64,000 nucleotides of DNA from an uncultured Alphaproteobacteria bacterium (GTDB taxonomy: Bacteria > Pseudomonadota > Alphaproteobacteria > Micropepsales > Micropepsaceae), in the NCBI GenBank assembly GCA_903897605.1, contig CAIUCH010000031.1, positions 1 through 64,000 on the forward strand, written 5' to 3'. This document shows, in pieces, positions 2,319 to 45,625 of the stretch. Position 1 is the first letter of the stretch. The number at the start of each line of letters is the position of its first letter. The notes under the pieces were generated by a model. It made no database searches. It was not told the DNA's origin and saw only the letters and a list, made by a program, of their open reading frames with translations. The position numbers were made by a program, and so were the translations under genes.

Positions 2319-3389
2319 TTGAACAGTCTGACGATATTGGGCCTGGAAACCAGCTGCGACGAAACCGCGGCGGCGGTAGTGCGCGGCACCCCGCCGGGAC
2401 CTGGCGTGATTCTCTCCAGCATCGTCTTCAGCCAAACCGAAGCCCATGCGCCCTATGGCGGCGTGGTGCCGGAAATCGCCTCCAGGGCCCATCTGGAAAT
2501 ACTGGACGGATTGATCGAACGCGCATTGGACGATGCGAATGTCTCGTTGCACGCGGTGGATGCGATTGCCGCCACGGCGGGACCGGGCCTGATCGGTGGC
2601 GTGATGGTGGGACTGACCACCGCCAAGGCATTGGCGCTTTGCATGGGCAAGCCGCTGATCGCGGTCAATCACTTGGCCGGTCATGCGCTGACAGCGCGGA
2701 TGACCGACGGTGTGGGTTTTCCATTCCTGCTGCTGCTGGTTTCGGGCGGTCATTGTCAGCTGCTGGCAGTGGCGGGGCCAGAGGATTACCGGCTCTATGG
2801 CACGACAATGGATGACGCGGTCGGCGAAGCCTTCGACAAGACCGCCAAAATATTGGGCCTGCCTTATCCCGGTGGACCGAATGTGGAAATTCATGCCGCG
2901 CGGGGCAATTCGCGCGCCTATCCGTTGCCGCGCCCATTGCTGGGCCGCCCCGGAATGGATTTTTCCTTTTCGGGTTTGAAGACCGCGGTGCGCCAATTGG
3001 CGCAGACCCAAGTGAACGTCGATGACGCCTGCGCGTCGTTCCAGGCGGCGGCGATCGATATTCTAAAGGACCGGACCGCACATGCCCTGACGCGTTTTCG
3101 TCAGGATTTCCCGCAAGCACCACATCCCATGCTGGTGGTGGCGGGCGGGGTTGCCGCAAATGCCGCCATCGGCGCGGCGCTCAGGCAATTGGCGGAAAGT
3201 CATGATTTCGACATCCGCGTACCGCCGCCAAAATATTGCACGGATAACGCGGCCATGATCGCCTGGGCGGGGCTGGAGCGGTTCGCGCTGGGAAAGCGCG
3301 ATCCGCTCGATTTCAGCCCCCGCGCGCGCTGGCCATTGGACGCGTCAGGCGACGACGGCCACAGTGGCAAGCGCCAGCAAGGCGCTTAG
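2319..3389 (+). CDS. tsaD: tRNA N6-threonylcarbamoyladenosine transferase TsaD
   Basis: A 356-residue Kae1/TsaD protein. It transfers the threonylcarbamoyl group from TC-AMP to A37 of ANN-decoding tRNAs, together with TsaB (encoded at 31817-32497) and TsaE. The N-terminus [16 protein letters not shown] is diagnostic. HLAGHALTA provides the two metal-binding histidines, and [13 protein letters not shown] and [16 protein letters not shown] are the ASKHA nucleotide-binding segments. No ATG lies near the expected N-terminus; the best start is TTG at 2319, four residues before the conserved ILGLETS. It is divergent from hemD, so both promoters must sit in the 82-bp gap. Its 3' end overlaps a possible small antisense gene. 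Confidence 0.96.
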
Positions 3390-3473
3390 GACAATCAGGA
3401 CGCCATTCAGCGATTCGATGACGAAACTGCCAAAATAGGTGCTGGCCTCGACGGGATGGGAATGAACACGCAT
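3345..3473 (-). CDS. Candidate 42-residue single-span membrane protein
   Basis: A short frame starting at ATG 3473, preceded by a strong Shine-Dalgarno AAGGAG seven bases upstream. It encodes about 20 polar residues ([17 protein letters not shown]...) and then one hydrophobic helix, roughly residues 23-42 ([18 protein letters not shown]), ending at the stop. It overlaps the last 45 bp of tsaD on the opposite strand. No family is recognised. The good ribosome-binding site and the clear hydrophobic helix are the only support. It could be spurious, as the C-terminal half is opposite tsaD coding sequence. Confidence 0.45.
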
Positions 3474-3694: not shown

Positions 3695-4489
3695 ATGAAA
3701 ATTGCCACCTGGAACATCAATTCGGTGCGCCACCGCATCAACCTGGTGACCCGCTTCCTCAGGGAGCATCAGCCCGATGCCCTGTGCCTGCAGGAGACCA
3801 AGGTCATCAATGAATTGTTCCCCAAGGCGCCGCTGGCAAAACTGGGATACGAGCATCAGGCGATCCACGGCCAGAAGGCCTATCACGGGGTGGCGATCCT
3901 CTCGCGGCTGCCATTCAAGAAAACCGGCGTGCAGGATTTCTGCCGCGAAGGCCATGCCCGCCACATTGGCGTGACGTTCGAGAATGGCGTGGAGCTGCAC
4001 AATTTCTATGTGCCGGCGGGCGGCGACATTCCCGATCCGGCGAAGAACGACAAATTCGCCCACAAGCTGCACTTCCTGGGCGAGATGGAAAAATTCTTCG
4101 CCCGGCGCAAAAGCCATCGCAAGGATCCGGTGGTGCTGGTGGGCGATCTCAATGTCGCGCCGCTGGAGAATGACGTCTGGAGTCACAAGCAATTGCTGGA
4201 TGTGGTGAGCCACACGCCGGTGGAGACGCGGCTGCTGGGTGAGGTGCAGGCGGCATTCGACTGGACGGACTCCACCCGGGTTTTCATTCCGCCGGAGGAG
4301 AAAATCTATTCCTGGTGGAGTTATCGCGCGTCCGATTGGGAAGCCTCGGACCGGGGGCGGCGCCTTGACCATGTCTGGCTCAGCCCGGGATTGAAAGGCG
4401 CGCTGAAGTCCCAGACCATCCTGAAAAAAATGCGCGGCTGGCAGAAGGCGTCGGATCATGTGCCGGTAATTGTCGAGGTTGCGGTTTGA
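3695..4489 (+). CDS. xthA: Exodeoxyribonuclease III (XthA)
   Basis: A 264-residue EEP-superfamily nuclease that acts as AP endonuclease and 3'-5' exonuclease in base-excision repair. MKIATWNINSVRHR at the N-terminus and ALCLQETKV (catalytic Glu) are diagnostic. LVGDLNVAP carries the catalytic Asp and Asn, SWWSYR is the substrate loop, and GRRLDHVWLSP and ASDHVPVIVEV supply the C-terminal Asp and His. The start is ATG 3695 because the catalytic fold begins there; the frame is open further upstream without similarity. The downstream phosphatase overlaps it by 4 bp, suggesting a two-gene operon. Confidence 0.95.
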   Translation: MKIATWNINSVRHRINLVTRFLREHQPDALCLQETKVINELFPKAPLAKLGYEHQAIHGQKAYHGVAILSRLPFKKTGVQDFCREGHARHIGVTFENGVELHNFYVPAGGDIPDPAKNDKFAHKLHFLGEMEKFFARRKSHRKDPVVLVGDLNVAPLENDVWSHKQLLDVVSHTPVETRLLGEVQAAFDWTDSTRVFIPPEEKIYSWWSYRASDWEASDRGRRLDHVWLSPGLKGALKSQTILKKMRGWQKASDHVPVIVEVAV

Positions 4490-5079
4490 GAATCGCGTTC
4501 CTGCGCCACGGGCCGACGCTGTGGAACGCGCAGGGCCGCATCCAGGGCCATACCGATATTCCCCTGAGCAATGAAGGCTTGGCGATGATGCGCGCGCTTC
4601 TGCCACCCGCGCCCTTCGAACAGGCGCGGGTGTTTGCCAGCCCATCGCGGCGCGCCCGCCAGACTGCCGAGGCGTTGGGGCTGCATGATGCGACCTGGGA
4701 CGCGCGGCTGATGGAGCAGAATTGGGGTGACTGGGAAGGATTGAGCCGCGACGCCATTCTGGCGCGCGATGGCGAGGACGCATTCCAGCGCGCCGGCCGG
4801 GCGCTTGCGTTCCGCCCGCCCGGCGGTGAATCCACCGCCGAATTGCACGACCGGGTCGCTGCTTTCCTGCGCGATGCGATCGGCGATCCCAATGACGCCA
4901 TCGTGGTGGCGCATCTGGGTGTGCTGCGCGCCGCTTACACTTTGGCGACGGACTGGGACATGGCGACGCCGATGCCGCCGGACCTGGATGTTTCGAAAGT
5001 ACTGATTCTGAATCTTGGCGCCGATGGCACGCCCGGTCTTGACACCCTGAATGTGCCCTTCAGACCCAGAACGGCGTGA
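4486..5079 (+). CDS. Histidine phosphatase family protein
   Basis: A 197-residue cytoplasmic protein with the RHG motif at its very start (FLRHGPTLWNAQGRIQG), where the His forms the phospho-enzyme. FASPSRRARQTAEALG, a central acid region (WGDWEGLSRDAI) and VVAHLGVLRAAYTL with the second His complete a phosphoglycerate-mutase-like fold. It starts at TTG 4486, whose last two bases belong to the TGA stop of xthA, so the genes are translationally coupled. The substrate cannot be told from sequence; related proteins include broad phosphatases and cobalamin-pathway CobC. Its last 20 bp overlap the convergent CHAD gene. Confidence 0.85.
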   Translation: MRIAFLRHGPTLWNAQGRIQGHTDIPLSNEGLAMMRALLPPAPFEQARVFASPSRRARQTAEALGLHDATWDARLMEQNWGDWEGLSRDAILARDGEDAFQRAGRALAFRPPGGESTAELHDRVAAFLRDAIGDPNDAIVVAHLGVLRAAYTLATDWDMATPMPPDLDVSKVLILNLGADGTPGLDTLNVPFRPRTA

Positions 5080-6019
5080 CCTTGCGGAATTTCCGCCAAC
5101 GCTTGAGCGCCTTTTTCGCGATCAGCGGCCGCCGCGCCCGGTACCAGCCCGCCACCAGCCCCGCCGCGTAACGCTCGCCCGGCGAAGCGCGCTTGCCGTC
5201 GGTCTCGCGCAACATGGTGGTCATGCTGGCGCGGACATGAGCGATATCGTTGATCGCGCCCAGTTGTTCCTGCAGCCCGCGCAGTTTCTTGACATAGCGG
5301 CGGACTTTTTCCTTGGAATAAAGTGGTGATAGGAATTCGGCGGTGTAACGCAACTTTTTCAGGGCGATCCGCAGGCGATGCAGATCGCCTTCCTCGCCGC
5401 TCCGCGCCTTGCGGCCGCGCTTGACCGCGCGCTTCTGCTGGCGATCCAGCAGTCGCGCCGCAACACGATTCAGCCTGGTATCCGGCGCCATCGGCAGACG
5501 CGAATGCGCCAGCGCCGCCACATCGTCCACGAACAGGGCGAAATCCGTGCCGGTGATGCAATCGACCGCCTGCTTCCAGGCCTTGTCGCGCATCTCTTCC
5601 ATGCGCAGGCGCAGATTGGCGAACGCCTCGCGGTCGCCTTCCTCGGCGGGCACGTCCAGCAGCTGGGTAATAAAGACATCCAGGTCGCGCGCCGGACCCA
5701 GCCGGCTGGACAGGATCTTGGCGCGGCTGCGCAGATCGCCAAGCCATTCCTGCCGGAATTCCTCGCCGAACCCTTTCAGCGCCACTTCCAGCCGCCGCAA
5801 GGCGACGCGCAATTGATGCAGGCCCTCGACTGAACGTCCAGCTCGCAAAGTGGCGGCGTTGGCTGTCATTTGCACCAGGCAATCCGACAGGCTGGCGCGA
5901 AACGCATCTTCCGGCCGCATGGTGCGATTGATGCGCGTCGGCCGCGCCTTGACCGGCTGGGCCGGACCCAGGCCGTGGCGGGCGAGGGAATGAATCGAAG
6001 CGGGGCGGGGATCGTCCAT
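5060..6019 (-). CDS. CHAD domain-containing protein
   Basis: A 319-residue protein that is almost all alpha helix and very rich in Arg and Lys. CHAD signatures are seen in GLHQLRVALRRLEVAL, SSRLGPARDLDVF, HRLRIALKKLRYTAEFL and LQEQLGAINDIAHVRA, with paired histidine and basic residues facing a central pore. CHAD proteins bind polyphosphate and often sit on polyphosphate granules. It lacks the N-terminal CYTH triphosphatase domain often fused to CHAD, and no ppk or ppx gene lies nearby. The first 30 residues look disordered. It is followed upstream by hisF, 41 bp away on the same strand. Confidence 0.88.
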   Translation of the reverse strand: MDDPRPASIHSLARHGLGPAQPVKARPTRINRTMRPEDAFRASLSDCLVQMTANAATLRAGRSVEGLHQLRVALRRLEVALKGFGEEFRQEWLGDLRSRAKILSSRLGPARDLDVFITQLLDVPAEEGDREAFANLRLRMEEMRDKAWKQAVDCITGTDFALFVDDVAALAHSRLPMAPDTRLNRVAARLLDRQQKRAVKRGRKARSGEEGDLHRLRIALKKLRYTAEFLSPLYSKEKVRRYVKKLRGLQEQLGAINDIAHVRASMTTMLRETDGKRASPGERYAAGLVAGWYRARRPLIAKKALKRWRKFRKVTPFWV

Positions 6020-6060
6020 CCGGCGAACTTAAGTCAGGCGCGCACGAATGCAAGACGCAC

Positions 6061-6834
6061 TCAAATGATACGCACCGGCAGTCCCGCCTTGGCCAGCGCC
6101 AGCTTGGCATCGGCGATGCTGGCTTCACCGAAATGAAAGATCGAAGCCGCCAGCACGGCGCTGGCATGGCCTTCGGTGACGCCCTTGACCAGGTCATTCA
6201 GCGAGCCGACGCCACCGGAAGCGATCACCGGCACATGCACCGCGTCGCTGATGGCGCGGGTGAGTGGAATGTCGTATCCGGACTTGGTGCCGTCGCGGTC
6301 CATCGAGGTGAGCAGGATTTCGCCGGTGCCATATTCCACCAGCCTTTTGGCATGGGCGACGGCGTCGATGCCGGTGGCGCGGCGTCCGCCATGCGTAAAA
6401 ACCTCAAAGGGCGGGCCGTTATGAGCGTGGGCGCCCCGCTTGGCGTCGATGGCGGCGACGATGCATTGGCTGCCGAATTTCTCCGCCGCCTCGCGCACGA
6501 ATTCGGGCCGAGTCACCGCTTCGGTATTGATGGAAACTTTGTCGGCGCCCGCCAAGAGCAAGGCGCGAATGTCTTCCAGGCTCCGCACCCCGCCGCCCAC
6601 CGTCAGCGGCATGAAGCAGACTTCCGCCGTGCGCCGCACCACATCCAGCAATGTGCCGCGCGCTTCATGGCTGGCGGTGATGTCCAGGAAGCAGAGTTCG
6701 TCGGCGCCCGCCGCGTCATAGATGATCGCCTGCTCGACGGGATCGCCGGCATCGCGCAGCTGCTCGAAATTGATGCCCTTGACGACGCGGCCGTCCTTCA
6801 CATCCAGGCAGGGGATAATACGAACTTTCAACAT
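6061..6834 (-). CDS. hisF: Imidazole glycerol phosphate synthase subunit HisF
   Basis: A 257-residue TIM-barrel cyclase subunit. With HisH it turns PRFAR and ammonia into IGP and AICAR in histidine synthesis. [21 protein letters not shown] holds the first catalytic Asp, [13 protein letters not shown] and [11 protein letters not shown] are phosphate-binding loops, [17 protein letters not shown] holds the second catalytic Asp, and [13 protein letters not shown] is the C-terminal phosphate loop. The start was set at 6834 where the barrel begins; the upstream open frame is inside holA. It follows holA by 2 bp, and no hisH or hisA is adjacent. hisE is separate at 23981, so the histidine genes are scattered. 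Confidence 0.96.
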
Positions 6835-6836
6835 TC

Positions 6837-7859
6837 TCAGCGCGCCTTCGCCAGCGCGGCGATATTCATCAGGGTCCTGCCGCACACCGCTTCGGCGGGA
6901 ACGCCGGTGGTGCGGCTGAGGGCCTCCGCCTCCAGCAGCATGTCGAGTGCGTCGGCCAGCCTTTCATCGCTCCAGCGATTGGCCTGCGCCTTGAAGGATT
7001 GTTCGCGCAGGAAATGAATGGGCGGCCGCTGCCGCTTGACCACGGTTTCCAGGCTTTCGCCGCGATTGACGCTTTCGCGCACCGAAGCCAGGCGCTGAAA
7101 ATGCCCCATCGCGCCGCGCAGGATCTGGGCCACCGAGGCATCGGCGATCCATAGCCGCTCCAATGCCAGGTCGAGGCGGGCAAAGTCGCCGCTGCCCGCC
7201 GCATCCGAGGCTTCCTCGGCACGGGCCTCGGCTTCATCGCCCATCACCGCACGGACATCCTCGAGGCTGATGCTTTTCTGCCCTTGCGCGTAGAGCGCCA
7301 ACTTTTCCAGTTCGCGCCGGGTCACGCCCCGGTCGGAGCCCAGCCGCGACACCGCATCGGCCAGCGCGTCCGGCGCGATGGCAAGACCTTGGGCGCGCAA
7401 GCTGTCACGCACCACATCTTCCAGATTGCGCGCGGTATCGGCATAGCAGGCGATCGCCGCAGCCTTGTCGTCGCTTTCGAACAGCTTGCGCAGGCCTGTG
7501 CCTTTGGAAAGATCGCCCGCTTCCACCACCACCAGCGCATCGCCCGGCGGATCTTCAAGAAATTGCTCGAACAGATCGGTGAGATTGTTGCCGGCGCCGC
7601 GCACCCGCACCACCCGGCGCCCGCCCATCATCGAGATCGCCGCCGCTTCGTCCGCCAGCCGGGCCGGATCGGACGACAGCACGCTTTCACTCAGGTCGGA
7701 GACATTGAAAGGATCGGCCAGATCGGCGACCACGCTTTTCAGCAGTTTTTCGGCGCGTTCCTGCACCAGGCCGGCATCGGGGCCGAACACCAGGACCGCG
7801 CGCAGAGTCTTGGGCGGATTGGCGGCGAAACGATCCGCCTCCTGGGTCTTGACGATCAT
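6837..7859 (-). CDS. holA: DNA polymerase III subunit delta (HolA)
   Basis: A 340-residue clamp-loader delta subunit, which opens the beta sliding clamp. It has the family's loose pattern: [20 protein letters not shown] at the N-terminus replaces the Walker region, then [22 protein letters not shown], the helical domain [24 protein letters not shown] and the C-terminal collar domain ending [10 protein letters not shown]. Length fits the family (about 340). It is the third gene of leuS-lptE-holA, overlapping lptE by 4 bp, an arrangement common in alphaproteobacteria. Confidence 0.92.
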
Positions 7860-8335
7860 TTGCGGTCGCCGAAGAACACGCCCAGATCCATGCGGATGCG
7901 ATCGGCCAGGTCATCGGCGGCGCGGCGGTCGGAATCCTGCTGCACTGCCAAGGTCGAATAGGGCGAATTGGACACGTTGAACGAGGACAGGCTGGTCTGG
8001 GTGCCGCGCGTCACTTCGGTGCCCTTGGCATCGGTCAGGACATAGGTGGCGGTGATAGTGTCGTTATAGCGGGTGATGGTGGCGTCGTTCTGCAAGGTGA
8101 CGCCGTTCGACAATTCATTCAGCGTGAGTTTGAGCCGATAGGCCTTGCCGCCTTCGCGGCCATCGGAACCCAGCAGGTCGATCAGCTGGTTGCGCAGTTC
8201 ATAGCCATCGCGTTCCGCCAGCGGTTCGACATAGATCGAAGACAATTGCGGCGCCAACCGCCCGCCATACAGCGGATGAAAGCCGCACGCCGCCAAGGCG
8301 AGAGAAGCGCATGCAATGAGCAAAGCCTGCTTCAT
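7856..8335 (-). CDS. lptE: LPS-assembly lipoprotein LptE
   Basis: A 159-residue outer-membrane lipoprotein that plugs the LptD barrel during delivery of LPS to the cell surface. The N-terminus [24 protein letters not shown] has a lipobox (LAAC, lipidated Cys 17) followed by the GFHPLYG motif characteristic of LptE. The rest is an alternating beta pattern with RLKLTLNEL and the conserved C-terminal helix [16 protein letters not shown]. It lies between leuS and holA, overlapping each by 4 bp, so the three are translationally coupled. This context strongly supports the call. Confidence 0.93.
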
Positions 8336-11046
8336 GCGACAATGTTCACAATTCGGCCGGGAACAACAATTACTTTCTTCGGGACGGTGCCGTCCAGGGC
8401 GCGTTTTACGCCCTCTTCCGCCAAAGCCGCCGCTTCCACCGTCTTGTTGTCGGCACCGCGGGCCACCACCACTTCGCCCCGACGCTTGCCGTTGACCTGC
8501 ACCGCGATGGTGACGGTGTCGGTTTTAAGCAGTGCCGGGTCGTGCTTGAGCCAGGCCGTTTCGGCCACGAAGGTGTCATGGCCCAGCGAACGCCAGCATT
8601 CTTCCGCCAGATGCGGCATCATCGGCGCCGCCAGCAGCACCAGCGCTTCCAGCGCCTCGCGCCGTGTGGCAGCATCGGCCTTGGGCGCGTCGGCGATGGC
8701 GTTGGACAACATGTAGAGTTGCGCCACCGCACGGTTGAACCGCAGACCCGCCAGGTCTTCGGTCACTGCCGCAATCGCCTTGTGCGCCGATTGGCGTAGC
8801 GCTTTGGAAATATCGTCCACCGGCACCGCCGCGGTGCCAGGCGCGGGCAAGCCTTCCGCTTCGCTCACCAGACGCCAGACACGCTGAACGAAACGCCAGC
8901 AGCCTTCGGCGCCCGCATCGGTCCATTCGATGTCGCGCTCGGGCGGGGTGTCCGACAGCATGAACCAGCGGATGGTGTCGGCGCCATAATCGGAAATGAT
9001 CGCTTCCGGCGCGATCACATTGCGTTTCGACTTGGACATTTTTTCCGACGAGCCAATCTCGACCGGTGCGTGATTGTCCTTGCGGAATGCCTTGCCGCCT
9101 TCCTTTACCACCTCGTCGGGCGAAATCCAGCCTTCGGCGTCACGATAGGTTTCGTGACAGACCATGCCCTGGGTGAACATTCCCGCGAACGGCTCGGAGA
9201 TCGAAATCAAGCCCAGTCTGTGCATCGCCCGGGTGAAGAAGCGGGCATAGAGCAAATGCAGAATCGCATGCTCGATGCCGCCGATATACTGATCCACCGG
9301 CAGCCAGTAATCCACCGCGTCCTTGTTCACGGGCGTCTGCGCGTGGGGATCGCAGAAGCGCGCGAAATACCAGGACGAGTCCGCGAAAGTGTCGAGCGTG
9401 TCGGTGTCGCGGGTGGCGGGGCCGCCGCAATCCGGACAAATGGTGTTTTTCCACTTCAGGTCGCGGTCCAGGGGATTGCCGCTCTTGGAGAAATCGATCT
9501 TATCCGGCAGCAGCACCGGCAGGTCGCTTTCCTTCAGCGCCACCACGCCGCATTTGGGGCAATGGACCATCGGGATGGGACAGCCCCAGGGACGTTGGCG
9601 CGACACCAGCCAATCGCGCAGCCGGTAATTCACCGTGCGCTCGCCGATGCCCCTTTTCTCAATTTCTTGTACGGCACGATCAAATGCTTCTTGAATTGAG
9701 AAAACTTCATCTGCTCCAAAGAAATTCTCGTAATGATACCAATCTTGCTCTTCGTAACGTTTGAACTTCTCGATTAGCTTTTGGATTTTCGGCTGCTTTC
9801 TAAACGCCGCGGAATAAAAATGGTCATTGCGCCCGACGTCAAAAGCCTTAGTCGTGACTGCAAAAACCCCGTCTGCCTCATCATGCGCAGTGTAATAGGG
9901 ATTTTCAGCAAATTCCTTTTCATGAGTAGAGATTTCTTGGGGCGTCGCTTTCTTGGAAAGATACGGGCGAAGCGCAACTGTCACCGGCAGCCCATATTTA
10001 TGGGCAAAATCCAGGTCGCGCTGGTCGTGCGCGGGACAGCCGAAGATCGCGCCAGTGCCGTAGCCCATCAGCACGAAATTCGCCACCATCACCGGCAGCT
10101 TCCAATTCGGATCGAAGGGATGCGCGGCGGTGAGGCCGGTATCATAGCCCAGCTTTTTCGCCTTCTCGATTTCCGCTTCCGCCGTGCCGGTCTTGCGGCA
10201 TTCGGCGATGAAGTCCTGCAGCTTGAGATCGGTCTTGGCCAGTTCCTGGGTCAGGGGATGATCGGGCGACAGAGCGACAAAGCTGGCGCCGAACAAGGTG
10301 TCGGGTCTTGTCGTGAACACGTCCAGCTTCTCGCCGTCCGACAAGGTGAACTGGAATTTCAGCCCTTCGCTGCGGCCGATCCAGTTCTTCTGCATGATCC
10401 GGACTTTTTCCGGCCAGCGGTCCAAAGTATCGAGCGCGGTCAGCAATTCTTCCGCGAAGGCGGTGATCTTGAAGAACCATTGCGACAGTTTGCGCCGTTC
10501 CACCACCGCGCCGGAACGCCAGCCGCGTCCGTCGATCACCTGTTCGTTGGCCAGCACGGTCTGATCGACCGGGTCCCAATTCACATCTGCTTCGCCGCGA
10601 TAAACGAAACCGGCATGATAGAATTGCAGGAACAGTTTCTGCTGCTGGTGATAATATTCCGGATCGCAGGTGGCGAATTCGCGCGACCAGTCGATCGACA
10701 GGCCCAACATCTTCAGGCCTTCGCGCATATGCGCGATATTCTCATAAGTCCAGTCGCGCGGACTGACGCCCTTGTCGCGGGCTGCGTTCTCGGCGGGAAG
10801 ACCGAAGGCATCCCAGCCCATCGGATGCAGCACGTTGTAGCCCTGGGCGCGGCGGAAGCGGGCGAGGACGTCGCCCATGGTGTAGTTGCGGGCGTGACCC
10901 ATATGGATGCGCCCCGACGGATAGGGGAACATTTCCAGCACATAGCATTTGGGCTTGGTGCCGTGATCCGGCGTCTTGAACAGCTGCAGCCGTTCCCATT
11001 CGCCCTGCCAGTGCTTCTCGGATTCCTTGGCGTTGTAACGCGCCAT
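8332..11046 (-). CDS. leuS: Leucyl-tRNA synthetase
   Basis: A 904-residue class I synthetase charging tRNA-Leu. The N-terminus [14 protein letters not shown] leads into [19 protein letters not shown] with the HIGH-type motif. The CP1 editing domain follows with [21 protein letters not shown]. The zinc-like insertion shows CPKCG and CPDCGG, and the catalytic loop is [11 protein letters not shown]. The C-terminal domain ends [10 protein letters not shown], the usual LeuRS tail that contacts the tRNA elbow. The start at 11046 was chosen because it is where family similarity begins. It heads the leuS-lptE-holA operon. Confidence 0.98.
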
Positions 11047-40998: not shown

Positions 40999-41005
40999 GG
41001 GGATC
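40999..41005. repeat. Target-site duplication, left copy (GGGGATC)
   Basis: The seven bases GGGGATC abut the left inverted repeat with one extra base A, and recur at 44146-44152. IS1595 elements normally duplicate 8 bp, so the eighth base has probably mutated. Confidence 0.88.
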
Positions 41006-41006
41006 A

Positions 41007-41030
41007 CTCCATTATGCAGCAAGCACACCT
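41007..41030 (+). repeat. Left terminal inverted repeat
   Basis: This 24-bp sequence begins CTCCATTATGCAGC and ends AGCACACCT. It is the exact reverse complement of 44122-44145. It also forms the last codons of the truncated comM frame. Confidence 0.95.
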
Positions 41031-41403
41031 AAGGTCGATCGTTTTTCTGATATGGAACGGTAGGGAAAGAAGTCCATATATGGGTAACCGCCGTCGTGTA
41101 ATCATCCAGCGGATTTGTCGCGCAGTAGTCCCGAATGGCCGCTTCCTGAGTTTGGTAGCTTGATGCCGCAAGGTCTTTCGTAGGGTGGAGGACGGCGTGA
41201 GCAATTGCATTTAGGCCGCTCATGTATCCCTGCGCCCAAGTGTAATATTCGGCCTCGATAGCGACATTCTTTTTGTAATCCTGGTCGAACAGAGCGCAAG
41301 TTGTTGCGCCTTTACCCCTTAGCATCGCTGTGTCTATGGCCCTCGCTGGTAGCGTGGCCAGGACCATCAATATCGCGCAAGAGAATGCCCACTTCATACC
41401 CAA
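41029..41403 (-). CDS. Passenger: small secreted protein with Rap1a/Tai-like pattern
   Basis: A 124-residue protein with a signal peptide (MKWAFSCAILMVLATLPARA). The mature part reads ATTCALFDQDYKKNV, YYTWAQGYMSGLNAIAHAV and AAIRDYCATNPLDDYTTAVTHIW. The WxxGYMSGxN and YCxxNPLxxY spacing, with two cysteines, recalls small periplasmic helical proteins such as the Rap1a/Tai immunity group. That link is tentative. Its stop codon lies on the inner edge of the left inverted repeat. As cargo of a transposon it might be a protective or immunity factor, which is inference. Confidence 0.65.
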   Translation of the reverse strand: MGMKWAFSCAILMVLATLPARAIDTAMLRGKGATTCALFDQDYKKNVAIEAEYYTWAQGYMSGLNAIAHAVLHPTKDLAASSYQTQEAAIRDYCATNPLDDYTTAVTHIWTSFPTVPYQKNDRP

Positions 41404-41707
41404 CCCTCCCCAGAAGCCGGGACAGGCTATCCCGTGCCCCTCAGTCGGGGAATGGCGACCCGGGTGAGCCGCAAAATGTGGGACGATAGGCCGTTAACGT
41501 CCAGAGATGTTGCAAAAAAATCCTCTCTTGAGTCTCTGCGACTAACCCCTTGATCTGGTGACAATATTTTTCTCACCGAATCAAAGAGATAAGCAAGACG
41601 TGTTCCCGGTTCGACCCTCTATGGGCTTGTCTGGTCCAAGACAGCCATTGCAAGAGAGTAAGAGGGGGAATATACGGCAAGAGAGAGGTTTTCTTGAGTT
41701 TTAACTC
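41404..41707. other. Intergenic gap inside the transposon
   Basis: A 304-bp AT-richer gap between divergent passenger genes. A small palindrome, GAGTT-TT-AACTC (41696-41707), directly precedes the ATG at 41708 and may be an operator. No promoter is clear and no further gene is seen. Confidence 0.4.
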
Positions 41708-42091
41708 ATGCGTGACATTCGGGAAGATTTGAAAGAGCGGATCAGGGTCGAACATGCCCGCCGCGAACCGCACCAAGAGGCGCTGAAGCAGATCGACGAC
41801 AATATCGCCGGTCTGGAGCGCCTACTGGCGACGGAAGAATCGCGGTCGAACGGCAACGGTAGCGTCGCTGCAATACTCCCGCGCCCCGCTGGCAACCTCA
41901 CCGACTACCTGACCAAGATGCTTAAGAAGGCCCCGCGAACCTTGGACGAAATGCGAGACGCCGCCGTGGCGGCGGGATATTTCGAGGGCGCTAAGGAAAG
42001 CCCCGGTCGGGCAATCCACGGCAAACTTTTGAACCCGATACGCGCGGGCCGGGTCATCAAAGATGCGGAAGGAAAATATCACGCGATATGA
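41708..42091 (+). CDS. Passenger: coiled-coil plus winged-helix-like protein
   Basis: A 127-residue protein. The first 45 residues are charged helix (LKERIRVEHARREPHQEALKQIDDNIAGLERLLATEE), likely a coiled coil. After a short Ser/Asn/Gly linker, LTDYLTKMLKKAPRTLDEMRDAAVAAGYFEGAKESPGRAIHGKLLNPIRAGRVIKDAEGKYHAI looks like a winged helix with the recognition helix near GRAIHGKL. No family is recognised. Its layout parallels that of the minus-strand passenger at 43580-44077. It may bind DNA for element regulation or transposition. A perfect GC hairpin follows the stop. Confidence 0.65.
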   Translation: MRDIREDLKERIRVEHARREPHQEALKQIDDNIAGLERLLATEESRSNGNGSVAAILPRPAGNLTDYLTKMLKKAPRTLDEMRDAAVAAGYFEGAKESPGRAIHGKLLNPIRAGRVIKDAEGKYHAI

Positions 42092-42094
42092 AAA

Positions 42095-42117
42095 CCCCCG
42101 GCCTTAGGGGCCGGGGG
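42095..42117. terminator. Hairpin after the coiled-coil gene
   Basis: CCCCCGGCC and GGCCGGGGG form a perfect 9-bp stem with a 5-nt loop. Four A bases precede it, so read on the minus strand it ends in a T tract; there is no T tract on the plus side. It separates the protein gene from the tRNA. Confidence 0.6.
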
Positions 42118-42127
42118 GATCTGAATT

Positions 42128-42219
42128 GGAGACGTGACTGAGAGGCAAAGTACCGGAAGTCCTAATCCGGCGTCGGCGTCGCGAGCGCCGCGAGGGTTCG
42201 ACCCCCTCCGTCTCCGCCA
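42128..42219 (+). tRNA. Class II tRNA (serine-type body) with abnormal 8-nt anticodon loop
   Basis: A complete cloverleaf. Acceptor stem GGAGACG/CGTCTCC pairs perfectly, discriminator G and CCA are encoded (42216-42219). The D-arm is ACT...AGT with 3 pairs, A14, GG and A21. The long variable arm is a stem GGCGT/GCGCC with a CGCGA loop, and the T-arm is GAGGG-TTCGACC-CCCTC. G73 and the long arm point to serine identity. The anticodon stem CCGGA/TCCGG encloses eight bases, AGTCCTAA. With A57 or A58 bulged the anticodon would be CCT; with an 8-nt loop, quadruplets TCCT or CCTA are alternatives. It is transposon cargo. Confidence 0.8.
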
Positions 42220-42220
42220 A

Positions 42221-42243
42221 TCTCCCGGGTCCAATCCGGGAGG
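42221..42243 (+). terminator. Stem-loop just 3' of the tRNA
   Basis: CTCCCGG and CCGGGAG pair as a perfect 7-bp stem around the loop GTCCAAT, starting two bases after the CCA end. There is no T-run, so it may be a processing or stabilising hairpin rather than a true terminator. Confidence 0.5.
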
Positions 42244-42264
42244 CATAAGAAGAAGGAAGTGACC

Positions 42265-42302
42265 AAACCGCCTTGGGTCCAAACCAGGGCGGTTTGTGTT
42301 TT
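42265..42302 (+). terminator. Intrinsic terminator between tRNA and DUF6471 gene
   Basis: AAACCGCC and GGCGGTTT pair over 8 bp, with inner TTGG/CCAA pairing, followed by GTGTTTT. It would end transcription from the tRNA side and separate it from the convergent DUF6471 gene. Confidence 0.65.
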
Positions 42303-42344
42303 AGGCCCCCATGGACGGAGGCGCAAGTAACGATATCGGTATGA

Positions 42345-42593
42345 TTATGGCGTTTCCGTCGCCTTCGCGTCCGGCATGGGCAGGGACTTCACGCCGATGG
42401 CGCACATACATTGCAGCAGGAAGGCCGCTGAGAAGCCGCCCCGACTGAGCTTGTTGGCGATATTCGCCGGGCTTTCCTTTATCCCAATCTTTTCAAGGCG
42501 TTGGGATAGCTCCTTTTGGGTAATCCCGTTGGCGGCCAACTGAGCCTTCAAGAGCCGCGTGGCCTTTTCCTGCCAATCTTTGTCCGTCACCAC
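42345..42593 (-). CDS. Passenger: DUF6471 domain protein, possible repressor
   Basis: An 82-residue protein starting at GTG 42593. WQEKATRLLKAQLAANGITQKELSQRLEKIGIKESPANIANKLSRGGFSAAFLLQCMCAIGV is the whole DUF6471 domain, which folds like an XRE helix-turn-helix: AELxxRGITQKELSQRL, then NIANKLSRG as the recognition region. It is read away from the transposase across a 103-bp gap with two matching palindromes, one on its own -10 box. A role as repressor of both genes is inferred. Confidence 0.8.
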   Translation of the reverse strand: MVTDKDWQEKATRLLKAQLAANGITQKELSQRLEKIGIKESPANIANKLSRGGFSAAFLLQCMCAIGVKSLPMPDAKATETP

Positions 42594-42611
42594 GACCGCG
42601 TTTCCGGTAGA

Positions 42612-42633
42612 AATATATCGTATTCGATATATT
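42612..42633. promoter_or_regulatory. Palindromic operator 1 over the DUF6471 promoter
   Basis: Perfect palindrome: AATATATCG, spacer TATT, CGATATATT. On the minus strand a promoter TTGCAT (42649-42654), 17-bp spacer and TATATC (42626-42631) reads toward DUF6471, and the palindrome covers its -10 box. Confidence 0.65.
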
Positions 42634-42637
42634 CCTA

Positions 42638-42666
42638 TTGACTACGTTATGCAACACTATCATATT
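42638..42666 (+). promoter_or_regulatory. Candidate sigma-70 promoter of the transposase gene
   Basis: TTGACT (42638-42643), a 17-bp spacer, and CATATT (42661-42666). The -10 box matches the consensus at four of six bases. It faces the divergent DUF6471 promoter within the same 103-bp region. Confidence 0.5.
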
Positions 42667-42684
42667 CGATATGGATATATCGAA
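42665..42684. promoter_or_regulatory. Palindromic operator 2 over the transposase promoter
   Basis: Palindrome TTCGATAT, spacer GGAT, ATATCGAA, sharing the half-site ATATCGA with operator 1. It begins at the end of the -10 box CATATT (42661-42666) of the plus-strand promoter and ends 12 bases before the transposase ATG. Confidence 0.62.
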
Positions 42685-42696
42685 ATCGTGTATAAA

Positions 42697-43662
42697 ATGA
42701 CCCAACACTTCCTCCTCTCCTCGAAAGCCCGAACCCTCTCGCTGGCTCAGGTCATGCGCATGACTGATTCGGAAGCCTTCGACCTTTTCGTGGCCCTTCG
42801 GTTCGCTGAGAACAGCGGCAAGCCCTACTGCCCGAAATGCGGCGGCTTGGACGTGTACCGCTACGCAAGCCGTCCCATCTTCAAATGCAAAGGGTGCAGC
42901 GCCCAATTCAGCGCAACCAGCGGGACCGTTTTCGCCAGCCGCAAGCTCGCTATCAAAGACATTCTCGCCGCCGTCGCCATCTTCGCCAATGGCGCGAAGG
43001 GTCACAGCGCCTTGCAGCTTTCGCGGGACATAGATTGCCAATATCGGACGGCTTACGTCCTGGCCCACAAGCTGCGCGAGAGCATGACGGCGGAAACCAA
43101 GGACGTTACGCTGTCGGGCACGGTCGAAATTGACGGCGCATATTTTGGCGGCCACGTGAAGCCCGCCAATTACAAGGACGACCGGATTGACCGCCGCCTG
43201 TCTGAGAACCGGACCGGCAAGCGCCGCTGCGTTGTGGTCATGCGCGAACGTGGTGGCCGCACCATCACCACCGTTGGCAATTCAGAACTGGCCGCCGTTC
43301 CTACCGTCATGGCCCGCGTTGCCCCTGGTACCGTCATCCACGCCGATGAGGCGACCTCCTGGGATGGGTTGCAGGCTCACTACGAAATGCGCCGCATCAA
43401 TCATAGCGTTTGCTATTCGGACGGCATGGCTTGCACGAATGGCGCTGAGAGCTTTTTCAGCCGCCTCCGTAGGGCAGAACTCGGCACCCATCACAGCATC
43501 AGGAAGGCTTATCTCGGAGCGTATGCCGCCGAAATGGCGTGGCGCGAAGATCATCGCCGCGAGAGCAACGGCGCTCAGTTTATTGGGATTGCGAAGTCAG
43601 CAGCGCAATCGCCCGTTTCCCGCCAGTGGAAAGGCTATTGGCAGCGCCACCTTCCGAAGTAA
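42697..43662 (+). CDS. IS1595-family (ISXO2-like) transposase
   Basis: A 321-residue DDE transposase, taking ATG 42697. The N-terminal zinc ribbon is YCPKCGGLDVYRYASR and FKCKGCSAQFSATSGTVF. The catalytic domain has GTVEIDGAYFGGHVKP (first Asp), VIHADEATSWDGL (second Asp) and NGAESFFSRLRRAELGTHHSI (Glu). Start codons further upstream would overlap operator and promoter sequence and are rejected. It ends inside the antisense passenger gene with 83 bp of overlap. Confidence 0.94.
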   Translation: MTQHFLLSSKARTLSLAQVMRMTDSEAFDLFVALRFAENSGKPYCPKCGGLDVYRYASRPIFKCKGCSAQFSATSGTVFASRKLAIKDILAAVAIFANGAKGHSALQLSRDIDCQYRTAYVLAHKLRESMTAETKDVTLSGTVEIDGAYFGGHVKPANYKDDRIDRRLSENRTGKRRCVVVMRERGGRTITTVGNSELAAVPTVMARVAPGTVIHADEATSWDGLQAHYEMRRINHSVCYSDGMACTNGAESFFSRLRRAELGTHHSIRKAYLGAYAAEMAWREDHRRESNGAQFIGIAKSAAQSPVSRQWKGYWQRHLPK

Positions 43663-44077
43663 GCCGCCAGATGCAACGGCCCCGCTGCTTCGGAAGTTTC
43701 TCGACCAAATAGCGGCGGCTCATCCCGCGCAATGATTGCAGGACACTAAAGCCGATGGAGCGCGCAAGCACTCTATCGGCGGCGTCCAATCCCTTTGCGG
43801 TCATGACGTGTTTTGCAAGATCCGGGGTCGAAAACGGCCCCTCTGTCAGCTTGGCGCGGCATAGGGCGGCAATCTCTCCATATCGGAAGGCCCGGCACAG
43901 GTGAGTGTAAGGCCGCTGTGAGCCGGGTCTGTCGCCTGCGTCGAAAATCGCCAGCGCCGCCGTGATATGCGCGAAGTCCGCCTTAGCACGCTCTAACTCC
44001 CGTTCGTAATTGACGATAGCAGCGGCGATTTCCTCGCGCTTTGCTCTCAGGATCGTGACGGTTTGGGACTCGGCCAT
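43580..44077 (-). CDS. Passenger: coiled-coil plus winged-helix-like protein
   Basis: A 165-residue protein. Residues 5-45 (ILRAKREEIAAAIVNYERELERAKADFAHITAALAIF) form a likely coiled coil. YGEIAALCRAKLTEGPFSTPDLAKHVMTAKGLDAADRVLARSIGFSVLQSLRGMSRRYLVEKLPKQRGRCIWRL then looks like a winged helix with a beta wing at the end. The order of parts matches the plus-strand passenger at 41708. No family is recognised. It overlaps the 3' end of the transposase antisense. Confidence 0.68.
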   Translation of the reverse strand: MAESQTVTILRAKREEIAAAIVNYERELERAKADFAHITAALAIFDAGDRPGSQRPYTHLCRAFRYGEIAALCRAKLTEGPFSTPDLAKHVMTAKGLDAADRVLARSIGFSVLQSLRGMSRRYLVEKLPKQRGRCIWRLTSEGGAANSLSTGGKRAIALLTSQSQ

Positions 44078-44121
44078 GCGCCGAAATTACCCCCGGACCC
44101 CCGAAGTACAACTAAATCTCT

Positions 44122-44145
44122 AGGTGTGCTTGCTGCATAATGGAG
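44122..44145 (-). repeat. Right terminal inverted repeat
   Basis: This 24-bp sequence, AGGTGTGCTTGC...ATAATGGAG, is the reverse complement of the left end. Bases just inside differ between ends, so the repeat is exactly 24 bp. Confidence 0.95.
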
Positions 44146-44152
44146 GGGGATC
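44146..44152. repeat. Target-site duplication, right copy (GGGGATC)
   Basis: GGGGATC follows the right inverted repeat directly. The next base G starts the GAG codon of comM residue 15. Confidence 0.88.
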
Positions 44153-45625
44153 GAGGCGCGCGACGTGGACGTGCAGGTGCATGTCGGCGATTCGGGCGGC
44201 GGGCAATTCAACATTGTCGGCTTGGCCGACAAGGCGGTGGCGGAAAGCCGCGAGCGGGTGCGCGCCGCCCTCACCGCCATCGGGTTGGCGCTGCCGTTCA
44301 AGCGCATCACGGTCAATCTGGCGCCTGCCGATCTGCCCAAGGAAGGCTCGCATTATGACCTGCCGATCGCGCTGGGTCTGCTGGCGGCGATGGGCGTCTT
44401 GCCCGCCAGCGAGATGGCGAATTATGTCGCGCTGGGTGAATTGTCGCTCGACGCGCACGTGACGGCGGTGGCCGGTGTGCTGCCGGCCGCGATTGCGGCG
44501 TCGGCAGCGGGGCGCGGCCTGATCTGTCCGGCGGCGTGCGGCGCGGAGGCGGCGTGGGCGGGCGATCTCACCATCCTCGCCACCCCGTCCCTGATCGCCT
44601 TGGTCAATCACATGAAGGGCGTCACGGTGCTGACACCGCCGACGCCGAAACTCGCCAGCACATCACGCGCCGTGCCGGACCTGAAAGATGTCAAAGGACA
44701 GGAAAGCGCCAAGCGGGCGCTGGAGATCACGGCGGCAGGCGGGCACAATTTGTTGATGATCGGCCCGCCCGGCGCGGGCAAATCGATGCTGGCGCAGCGC
44801 CTGCCCGGGCTATTGCCGCCGCTGGATGCGCGCGAGGCATTGGAGATCTCGATGGTGCGCTCTTTGGCGGGCGAGTTGACCGATGGCACGATCAGCCGCG
44901 AACGGCCGTTCCGCAATCCGCATCATTCCGCCTCCATGGCGGCGCTGGTGGGCGGCGGCCTGAAAGTGCGGCCGGGCGAAGTCTCGCTGGCGCATCTGGG
45001 CGTGCTGTTTCTGGACGAGCTGCCGGAATTCCAGCGCGGTGTGCTGGACAGCCTGCGCCAACCAATCGAGACCGGCGAAGCGGTGGTGGCGCGCGCCAAT
45101 GCCCATGTGCGCTATCCCGCGCGCTTTCAATTGGTGGCGGCGATGAATCCCTGCCGCTGCGGTTATCTCAGCGACCCCGCGCAAGCCTGCTCGCGCGCGC
45201 CCAAATGCGGCGCCGATTACCAGTCGCGCATCTCCGGGCCGCTGTTCGACCGCATCAATCTGCATGTCGAAGTGCCCGGCGTGCTGGCCAGCGATCTGGC
45301 CTTGCCGCCGCCGGCAGAAGGCAGCGCCGAAGTCGCCGCCCGTGTCGCCCGCGCCCGCGATATCCAGCGCACGCGATTCGAAGGCACGGCCATCCGCACC
45401 AACGCCGAAGCCGAAGGCGAATTGCTGGACCGCATCGCCACGCCGGAAGCATCGGGCGTCAAGCTTCTTACCGAGGCGGCGGAACGGATGCGGCTGTCGG
45501 CGCGCGGCTACAGCCGGGTGCTGCGGGTGGCGCGCACCATCGCCGACCTTGCCGGTTCGCCGCAGGTACTCAGGCCGCACATCGCCGAGGCCTTGTCCTA
45601 TCGCAGGTTGAATCTTCAAAGCTGA
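44147..45625 (+). pseudogene. comM: comM (yifB) 3' part, AAA+ Mg-chelatase-like helicase
   Basis: This 492-codon stretch continues codon 14 of comM: GIEARDVDVQVHVGDSGGGQFNIVGLADKAVAESRERV. All functional parts remain: the N-terminal Lon-like domain, Walker A (IGPPGAGKSMLAQRL), Walker B (GVLFLDELPEF), and the C-terminal lid (SARGYSRVLRVARTIADLA). Only the first 14 residues and the start codon are cut off. Translation might restart at GTG 44165 with AGGGGG upstream, giving a 486-residue protein lacking the first beta strand. It is probably inactive or impaired. Confidence 0.88.

Follow-up and report, generated by a model that had tools for sequence, protein, structure and literature searches.

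In a 64,000-nucleotide stretch of DNA from an uncultured alphaproteobacterium of the family Micropepsaceae (contig CAIUCH010000031.1, positions 1 to 64,000; hereafter the window), we find a complete IS1595-family transposon that carries a transfer RNA (tRNA) gene with a serine-type body and the arginine anticodon CCU. The element's own transposase contains AGG, the codon that CCU reads, at codons 259 and 269, and at the second of these positions its wider family has alanine or serine. From these sequences, we propose that the element's tRNA could partly re-interpret AGG in its own transposase, and that this could both enable and limit transposition; we hold this proposal tentatively, at slightly less than an even chance. 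The reading of AGG as serine is founded well enough in sequence to merit a direct test. The principal features are as follows, with the basis of each in brackets.

41007..44145, no strand: complete IS1595-family transposon, 3,139 bp (terminal inverted repeats, target duplication, flank alignment)
41007..41033, + strand: left terminal inverted repeat (25 bp identical to the right one)
44119..44145, - strand: right terminal inverted repeat (25 bp identical to the left one)
40999..41006, no strand: left target-site duplication GGGGATCA (7/8 matches to the right one)
44146..44153, no strand: right target-site duplication GGGGATCG (7/8 matches to the left one)
42128..42219, + strand: class II tRNA gene with a serine-type body, the anticodon CCU and an encoded CCA (ARAGORN, Rfam, alignment with relatives and host tRNAs)
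42158..42165, + strand: anticodon loop AGTCCTAA, 8 nt, TTCCTAA in two relatives (sequence and alignment)
42161..42163, + strand: anticodon CCU, reading AGG (Arg) (alignment with two relatives with 7-nt loops, both CCT by ARAGORN)
42697..43662, + strand: IS1595-family transposase, 321 aa (PF12762, PF12760, NF033547)
43471..43473, + strand: transposase codon 259, AGG, family residue Arg (alignment)
43501..43503, + strand: transposase codon 269, AGG, where the family has Ala or Ser (alignment)

The transposon and its mismatched tRNA

The element has the DDE transposase, the identical 25-bp terminal inverted repeats (TIRs) and the 8-bp target duplication of the IS1595 family. Its transposase scores 148 bits with PF12762, 39.5 bits with PF12760 and 143.8 bits with NF033547 (cut-off 75). 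Within the genome that holds the window (G000; 2.79 Mb, 60 contigs), the TIR pattern occurs, with up to two mismatches, only at the two ends of this element. When the element is removed by script, the joined flanks align unbroken to the syntenic loci of two related genomes, G028 and G065, which are empty sites. A transposase search of 69 genomes of the genus found close relatives of the transposase in these same two genomes (78% for G065, 76% for G028). Their elements have the same type of TIR, perfect 8-bp target duplications (8/8) and the same tRNA gene at the same place; the earlier note on this DNA, made from the letters of the window, had proposed to look for the tRNA in other IS1595-type elements.

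The tRNA gene is the sole ARAGORN call in the window. The Rfam tRNA model gives it 43.5 bits, well over the gathering score of 29, and a gathering scan of the whole window listed no match. Its acceptor stem (GGAGACG/CGTCTCC) is paired at 7/7 positions and is followed by G73 and an encoded CCA; the D-stem has three pairs (ACT/AGT), the variable region is 21 nt long, the T-stem is GAGGG/CCCTC, and the anticodon stem CCGGA/TCCGG closes the eight-nucleotide loop. The cloverleaf that the earlier note had drawn, with its perfect acceptor stem, encoded CCA, three-pair D-stem, long variable arm and G73, is thus upheld by sequence, ARAGORN and Rfam, and its eight-base loop and its location on a transposon, here the TIR-bounded IS1595 element, also held. 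The folding energy of the gene is unremarkable (z -1.16) and uninformative as evidence.

The identity of this tRNA is mixed. The closest of 32 host tRNAs to all three element tRNAs is tRNA-Ser(GCU), and this nearest body, the long variable arm and G73 are those expected of a tRNA-Ser. A serine anticodon is absent; all three copies have the arginine anticodon CCU, which a single base separates from the GCU of the host tRNA-Ser. ARAGORN labels the window tRNA Ile(aat) because its eight-nucleotide loop is read in a shifted register. The G028 and G065 loops have seven bases, TTCCTAA, and ARAGORN assigns both of them the anticodon CCT. The window tRNA alone has the eighth loop base, and its D-loop is two bases shorter than those of its relatives. 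Judged from the alignment, the eight-nucleotide loop is a one-base insertion peculiar to the window copy, and it may weaken that tRNA.

The window and G028 tRNAs share 73% identity over their full length. Among the three copies, three acceptor pairs and two anticodon-stem pairs have changed with pairing preserved, and one acceptor pair is broken, by an A-C mismatch in G065. Because homologues with pair-preserving stem changes stand at the same position in the element, the window tRNA is more than a chance cloverleaf.

AGG codons in the transposase

The three full-length transposases of this clade contain exactly two AGG codons each, at codons 259 and 269. A fourth relative, in genome G010, is truncated (77-78%, with an in-frame TGA and a contig that starts inside the gene); with this copy included, AGG stands at both positions in 4/4 clade transposases. 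We surveyed these codons in 107 loci, of which 106 gave a match; matches that did not span both codons or were identical in DNA were dropped, and the 85 rows kept comprise the four clade members and 81 others. Of the 81, 79 have Arg at position 259, one has Asn and one has Lys. Position 269 is divided between Ala (42) and Ser (38), with one Arg besides, the residue at which the truncated match of L244 ends. The commonest codon for Ser269 is AGC (24/38), one base from AGG.

Several properties of position 269 are consistent with a serine there. With Ser269, the clade reads S-K-A-Y-L, and the eight most distant aligned transposases all have Ser at 269, with Lys, Arg, Glu or Ser as the next residue. 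Scored with a profile of 62 relatives, Arg259 with Ser269 exceeds Arg at both positions by 3.0, 2.9 and 2.9 bits in the three copies. In an AlphaFold2 model (38 sequences, mean predicted local distance difference test score, pLDDT, 81.2), residue 269 lies directly before helix 270-285, a helix-cap-like place modelled with only moderate confidence. A search of solved structures gave four weak matches (E 0.13-0.6), with no IS1595 transposase among them.

To ask how unusual the retention of AGG is, we compared codons across the three genomes. At four-fold sites, the window transposase shares its third base with the other two full-length transposases at 38/84 and 37/78 sites, and those two with one another at 60/92; across 23 host genes from these genomes, the pairwise third-base identities are 828, 779 and 802 of 1,474. 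We define a rare-codon site as a conserved site at which one or more of the three copies use a rare codon. The transposases have 24 such sites, and the two AGG sites alone show the same codon in every copy. In the 23 host genes, rare-codon sites are identical in all three genomes at 20/453; of 22 conserved Arg sites at which one or more of the genomes use AGG, two have AGG in all three. By Fisher's test, the retention of AGG in the transposase has a p of 0.022, which we take as suggestive, not overwhelming. A nucleotide-level constraint was considered as a further candidate, as the AGGAAGG motif resembles a ribosome-binding site, and rejected: no conserved start codon follows it, and the neighbouring synonymous sites vary, by eye, among the four copies.

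The host has tRNA-Arg genes with the anticodons CCU and UCU, and AGG therefore normally means Arg. Seryl-tRNA synthetase (SerRS) does not use the anticodon, according to the excerpted text of PMC11415595. Since SerRS is blind to it, a serine-bodied tRNA with the anticodon CCU is predicted to deliver serine at AGG. The element tRNA would be charged with serine by SerRS, and the seryl-tRNA would compete with the host's tRNA-Arg(CCU) at AGG, so that decoding would become ambiguous. The transposase would then be made as a mixture of molecules with Arg or Ser at both AGG codons. Arg259 supplied by the host tRNA and Ser269 supplied by the element tRNA would together give the family-consensus enzyme; a molecule would fit that consensus only if it had Arg at 259 together with Ser (or an Ala-like residue) at 269. 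Transposition would depend on the element tRNA, and would drop again if this tRNA became too abundant. In its boldest form, which we regard as rather doubtful, the transposon would be self-recoding: its transposase would be fully active only with AGG259 read as Arg and AGG269 read as Ser, its activity would follow p(1-p), where p is the serine-reading fraction, and this activity would be nil without the element tRNA and would fall as the tRNA rises with copy number. The mismatched class II tRNAs of other elements would then be variations on a tRNA cargo slot.

Other tRNA-bearing elements and rival explanations

We scanned 86 IS1595-bearing loci for element ends and recognised them in 42; a tRNA lies inside six of these 42 end-bounded elements, namely the three CCU copies and those of loci L086, L249 and L253. 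L086 carries an Arg-bodied class I tRNA with the anticodon CUG (Gln) at 6882-6957 (-), within an element at 3888-8524. L249 carries a Leu-bodied class II tRNA with UGU (Thr codon ACA) at 3354-3442, in nearly the same place before the transposase; it has a T-T mismatch in its anticodon stem, and its contig is shared with L223 (2354-2442). The tRNA of L253, at 5306-5382 (-), is a class I tRNA called as Thr(GGU), with an ambiguous body and an acceptor mismatch. At L261, a Leu-bodied class II tRNA with GUC (Asp) at 5985-6075 follows an IS1595 transposase by about 1 kb, and only a right-end-like repeat was found. Together, these cases point to a wider IS1595 habit of carrying identity-mismatched tRNAs.

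A number of observations weigh against self-recoding. In these other elements, no ACA (L249), GAC (L261), ACC (L253) or CAG (L057/L086) codon of the transposase is conspicuous as one that the tRNA body would explain, and the invariant Asp146 of the L261 transposase is itself encoded by GAC; the recoding idea therefore stands on the CCU clade alone. The four clade transposases share descent and are not four independent events. When the host comparison is limited to the eight sites at which G000 has AGG, two of which are kept, the p for AGG retention becomes 0.13. AGG259 is also found once outside the clade, in 1 of the 81 (L296), at a locus with no detected tRNA, and the 81 transposases contain no AGG in 53 cases and one to five in the other 28. 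Codon 259 specifies an almost invariant Arg, and reading both AGG codons as Ser or both as Arg gives the window copy 519.3 and 519.4 bits, respectively. At 269, the same profile scores Ala like Ser, and the model is only moderately confident nearby (block mean 66). The adjacent residue 270 is Lys in the clade, while the others with a residue there have Gly in 60/80 and Lys in 3/80; because 270 is altered as well, 269 may belong to a local change to Arg-Lys.

These mismatched tRNAs without a codon signature favour a different explanation, which we consider possible and on balance unlikely: the tRNA is serine missense cargo that causes low-level mistranslation of host AGG codons, with a role in stress adaptation, defence or addiction, and the transposase has its AGG codons by coincidence. 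The IS1595 elements met in our searches carry varied passengers, and AGG is used at 4.66 per 1000 codons in 36 long open reading frames (ORFs) of the window, hence host proteins would be affected. Coincidence accounts poorly for the retention of AGG at both transposase sites, and for AGG269 in four of four clade members against Ala or Ser in 80 of 81 others. The tRNA might instead receive Arg, or be charged by both enzymes, and merely aid the translation of AGG within the element's genes, a role proposed for some phage tRNAs. The AGG at the nearly invariant Arg259 agrees with this, as does the presence of AGG in a DUF6471 gene and other passenger genes; we find it improbable in view of the serine-type body with its long variable arm and G73, the host's existing supply of both tRNA-Arg species, and an Arg269 that would not fit the family pattern.

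A functionless gene, captured from tRNA-Ser(GCU) and now drifting or decaying, would be expected to show blemishes such as the one-base loop insertion and shorter D-loop of the window copy, the A-C mismatch of G065 and the T-T mismatch of L249, and some IS1595 relatives directly adjoin tRNA genes of the host, which may be how such genes are captured. The three CCU copies, at the 73% level of identity, nevertheless retain the cloverleaf, CCU, CCA, pair-preserving changes and flanking hairpins, and decay seems to us a poor candidate. The earlier note had raised one further idea from the eight-base loop, a +1 frameshift suppressor that reads a four-base codon, and had named in advance what would speak against it, seven-base loops in related copies that mark a one-base insertion in this one. 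This is what the TTCCTAA loops of G028 and G065 reveal. The eight-base loop is not a family-wide trait, the four-base-codon idea therefore falls, and we give it very little credence. The transposase frame is also intact, and no single four-base codon is kept because the base after AGG is G at 259 and A at 269 in all four copies. Nothing was found in favour of a reading of UAG, at which no test was aimed. What survives of the decoding proposal is its serine part: a serine-type tRNA with the AGG-reading anticodon CCU could put serine into element genes, among which the transposase keeps AGG269.

Partial re-interpretation of AGG by the element tRNA can be compared with known systems. CUG-Ser yeasts use a tRNA-Ser(CAG), with ambiguous decoding of CUG in Candida (PMC11415595). 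In both cases, as far as the excerpts of that source extend, a serine tRNA has a foreign anticodon that SerRS ignores and one codon would have two meanings; the yeast reassignment is nuclear and genome-wide, whereas here the gene is transposon-borne, the bacterium keeps its tRNA-Arg(CCU) and the codon is kept in the element's transposase. The same source describes tRNAProX and ProRSx of Streptomyces and Kitasatospora, a body/anticodon mismatch thought to serve deliberate mistranslation (PMC11415595). The element tRNA is likewise a bacterial tRNA whose body and anticodon belong to different amino acids; tRNAProX is described there with a proline body, A33, A34 and its own synthetase, in contrast to the serine body, U33 and C34 found here and to the element ORFs searched, which include no synthetase. 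Natural serine-type allo-tRNAs also have odd anticodons, and one allo-tRNA pseudogene overlaps a transposon-related ORF (PMC7609411, in part). Their acceptor and T-stems are given as 8/4 or 9/3, unlike the 7/5 of the element tRNA by sequence. A mitochondrial tRNA with an eight-base anticodon loop serves a sense-codon reassignment, according to excerpts of the same source (PMC7609411). Phage tRNAs with altered anticodon loops have been described, and escape from host tRNases has been proposed for them (PMC10264068, in part). Like the element tRNA, they are encoded on mobile DNA and have a changed anticodon loop, as far as that account goes. In the phage tRNAs, body and anticodon reportedly agree, whereas the identity of the element tRNA is mismatched.

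Neighbouring features and distribution

The remaining features of the element and the surroundings of the tRNA are listed below.

42345..42593, - strand: DUF6471 gene, antisense, between tRNA and transposase (PF20075, 101.6 bits; relatives in the G028 and G065 elements)
41708..42091, + strand: passenger ORF, 127 aa, no family match (family searches)
43580..44077, - strand: passenger ORF, 165 aa, no family match, overlapping the transposase end (family searches)
41029..41403, - strand: passenger ORF, 124 aa, no family match (family searches)
42095..42117, + strand: GC-rich hairpin, 10 nt 5' of the tRNA (folding; the G028 counterpart folds, the G065 counterpart is seen by eye)
42221..42242, + strand: hairpin directly 3' of the tRNA (folding)
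42264..42296, + strand: terminator-like hairpin with a T-rich tail (folding)

Counterparts of the hairpins that flank the tRNA are folded in G028 and visible in G065. The region near the tRNA has three terminator-like sites, with 1.7 expected from shuffles. No synthetase family was found among the window ORFs searched (six in one family scan, five in another). The G028 element also contains a match to the skipping-rope RNA family (L082:3912-4012; 37.7 bits, cut-off 36.7).

A pattern for class II tRNAs with CCU, G73 and CCA, strict enough to miss relatives with a different T-arm or without an encoded CCA, matches 3 of the 69 genus genomes, always within the element, and G000 only among 385 genomes of a class sample. 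It also has matches in 96 genome_contigs stretches and 27 viral_contigs stretches. A related transposase is present in the fetched stretch of just one of these 123 (tblastn, 1e-5), L133, from the metagenome-assembled genome (MAG) Alphaproteobacteria bacterium fen_915; its transposase is identical to that of G065, and L133 is very probably G065 itself. The remaining listed matches are mainly intron-bearing archaeal tRNA-Arg genes, other tRNAs read off-register, or chance, with a few unusual ones. These include tRNA-like sequences in three viral contigs (L199, L204, L206) and a Parachlamydia MAG (L128), in which a long anticodon arm with a CCT loop, a T-arm and CCA are present and no D-arm is evident. 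Class II tRNAs with CCT occur in a Hermodarchaeota MAG (L127:2541-2595, -) and in a viral contig (L203:3044-3097, +), in both cases with no related transposase in the fetched stretch. A search of plasmid DNA with the tRNA region returned zero matches; the transposase matched 299 plasmid protein records, all below 60% identity, and two phage protein records at 27-31%.

At four further loci, IS1595 relatives lie directly beside tRNA-Gln(CUG) or tRNA-Arg(CCU) genes; these tRNAs are excluded from the cargo count, as they lie outside the element (L085, L229) or the element's ends fall below threshold (L089, L231). Insertion beside tRNA genes may reflect a target preference and provide a route of tRNA capture.

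The element resembles known IS1595 transposons with passenger genes in its transposase family, TIRs, 8-bp target duplications and passengers, and differs from them in combining a tRNA of mismatched identity with a matching codon in its own transposase. The literature searched, whose coverage leaves out most subscription papers and all preprints, contains no report of an IS1595-borne tRNA or of a transposon that recodes its own transposase. The prediction is narrow, concerning one tRNA, one codon and one residue. If it is true, a 3-kb transposon changes how a sense codon is read in its own transposase, and transposition would be controlled by ambiguous decoding. As a mobile source of missense tRNAs, such an element would also bear on the origins of sense-codon reassignments.
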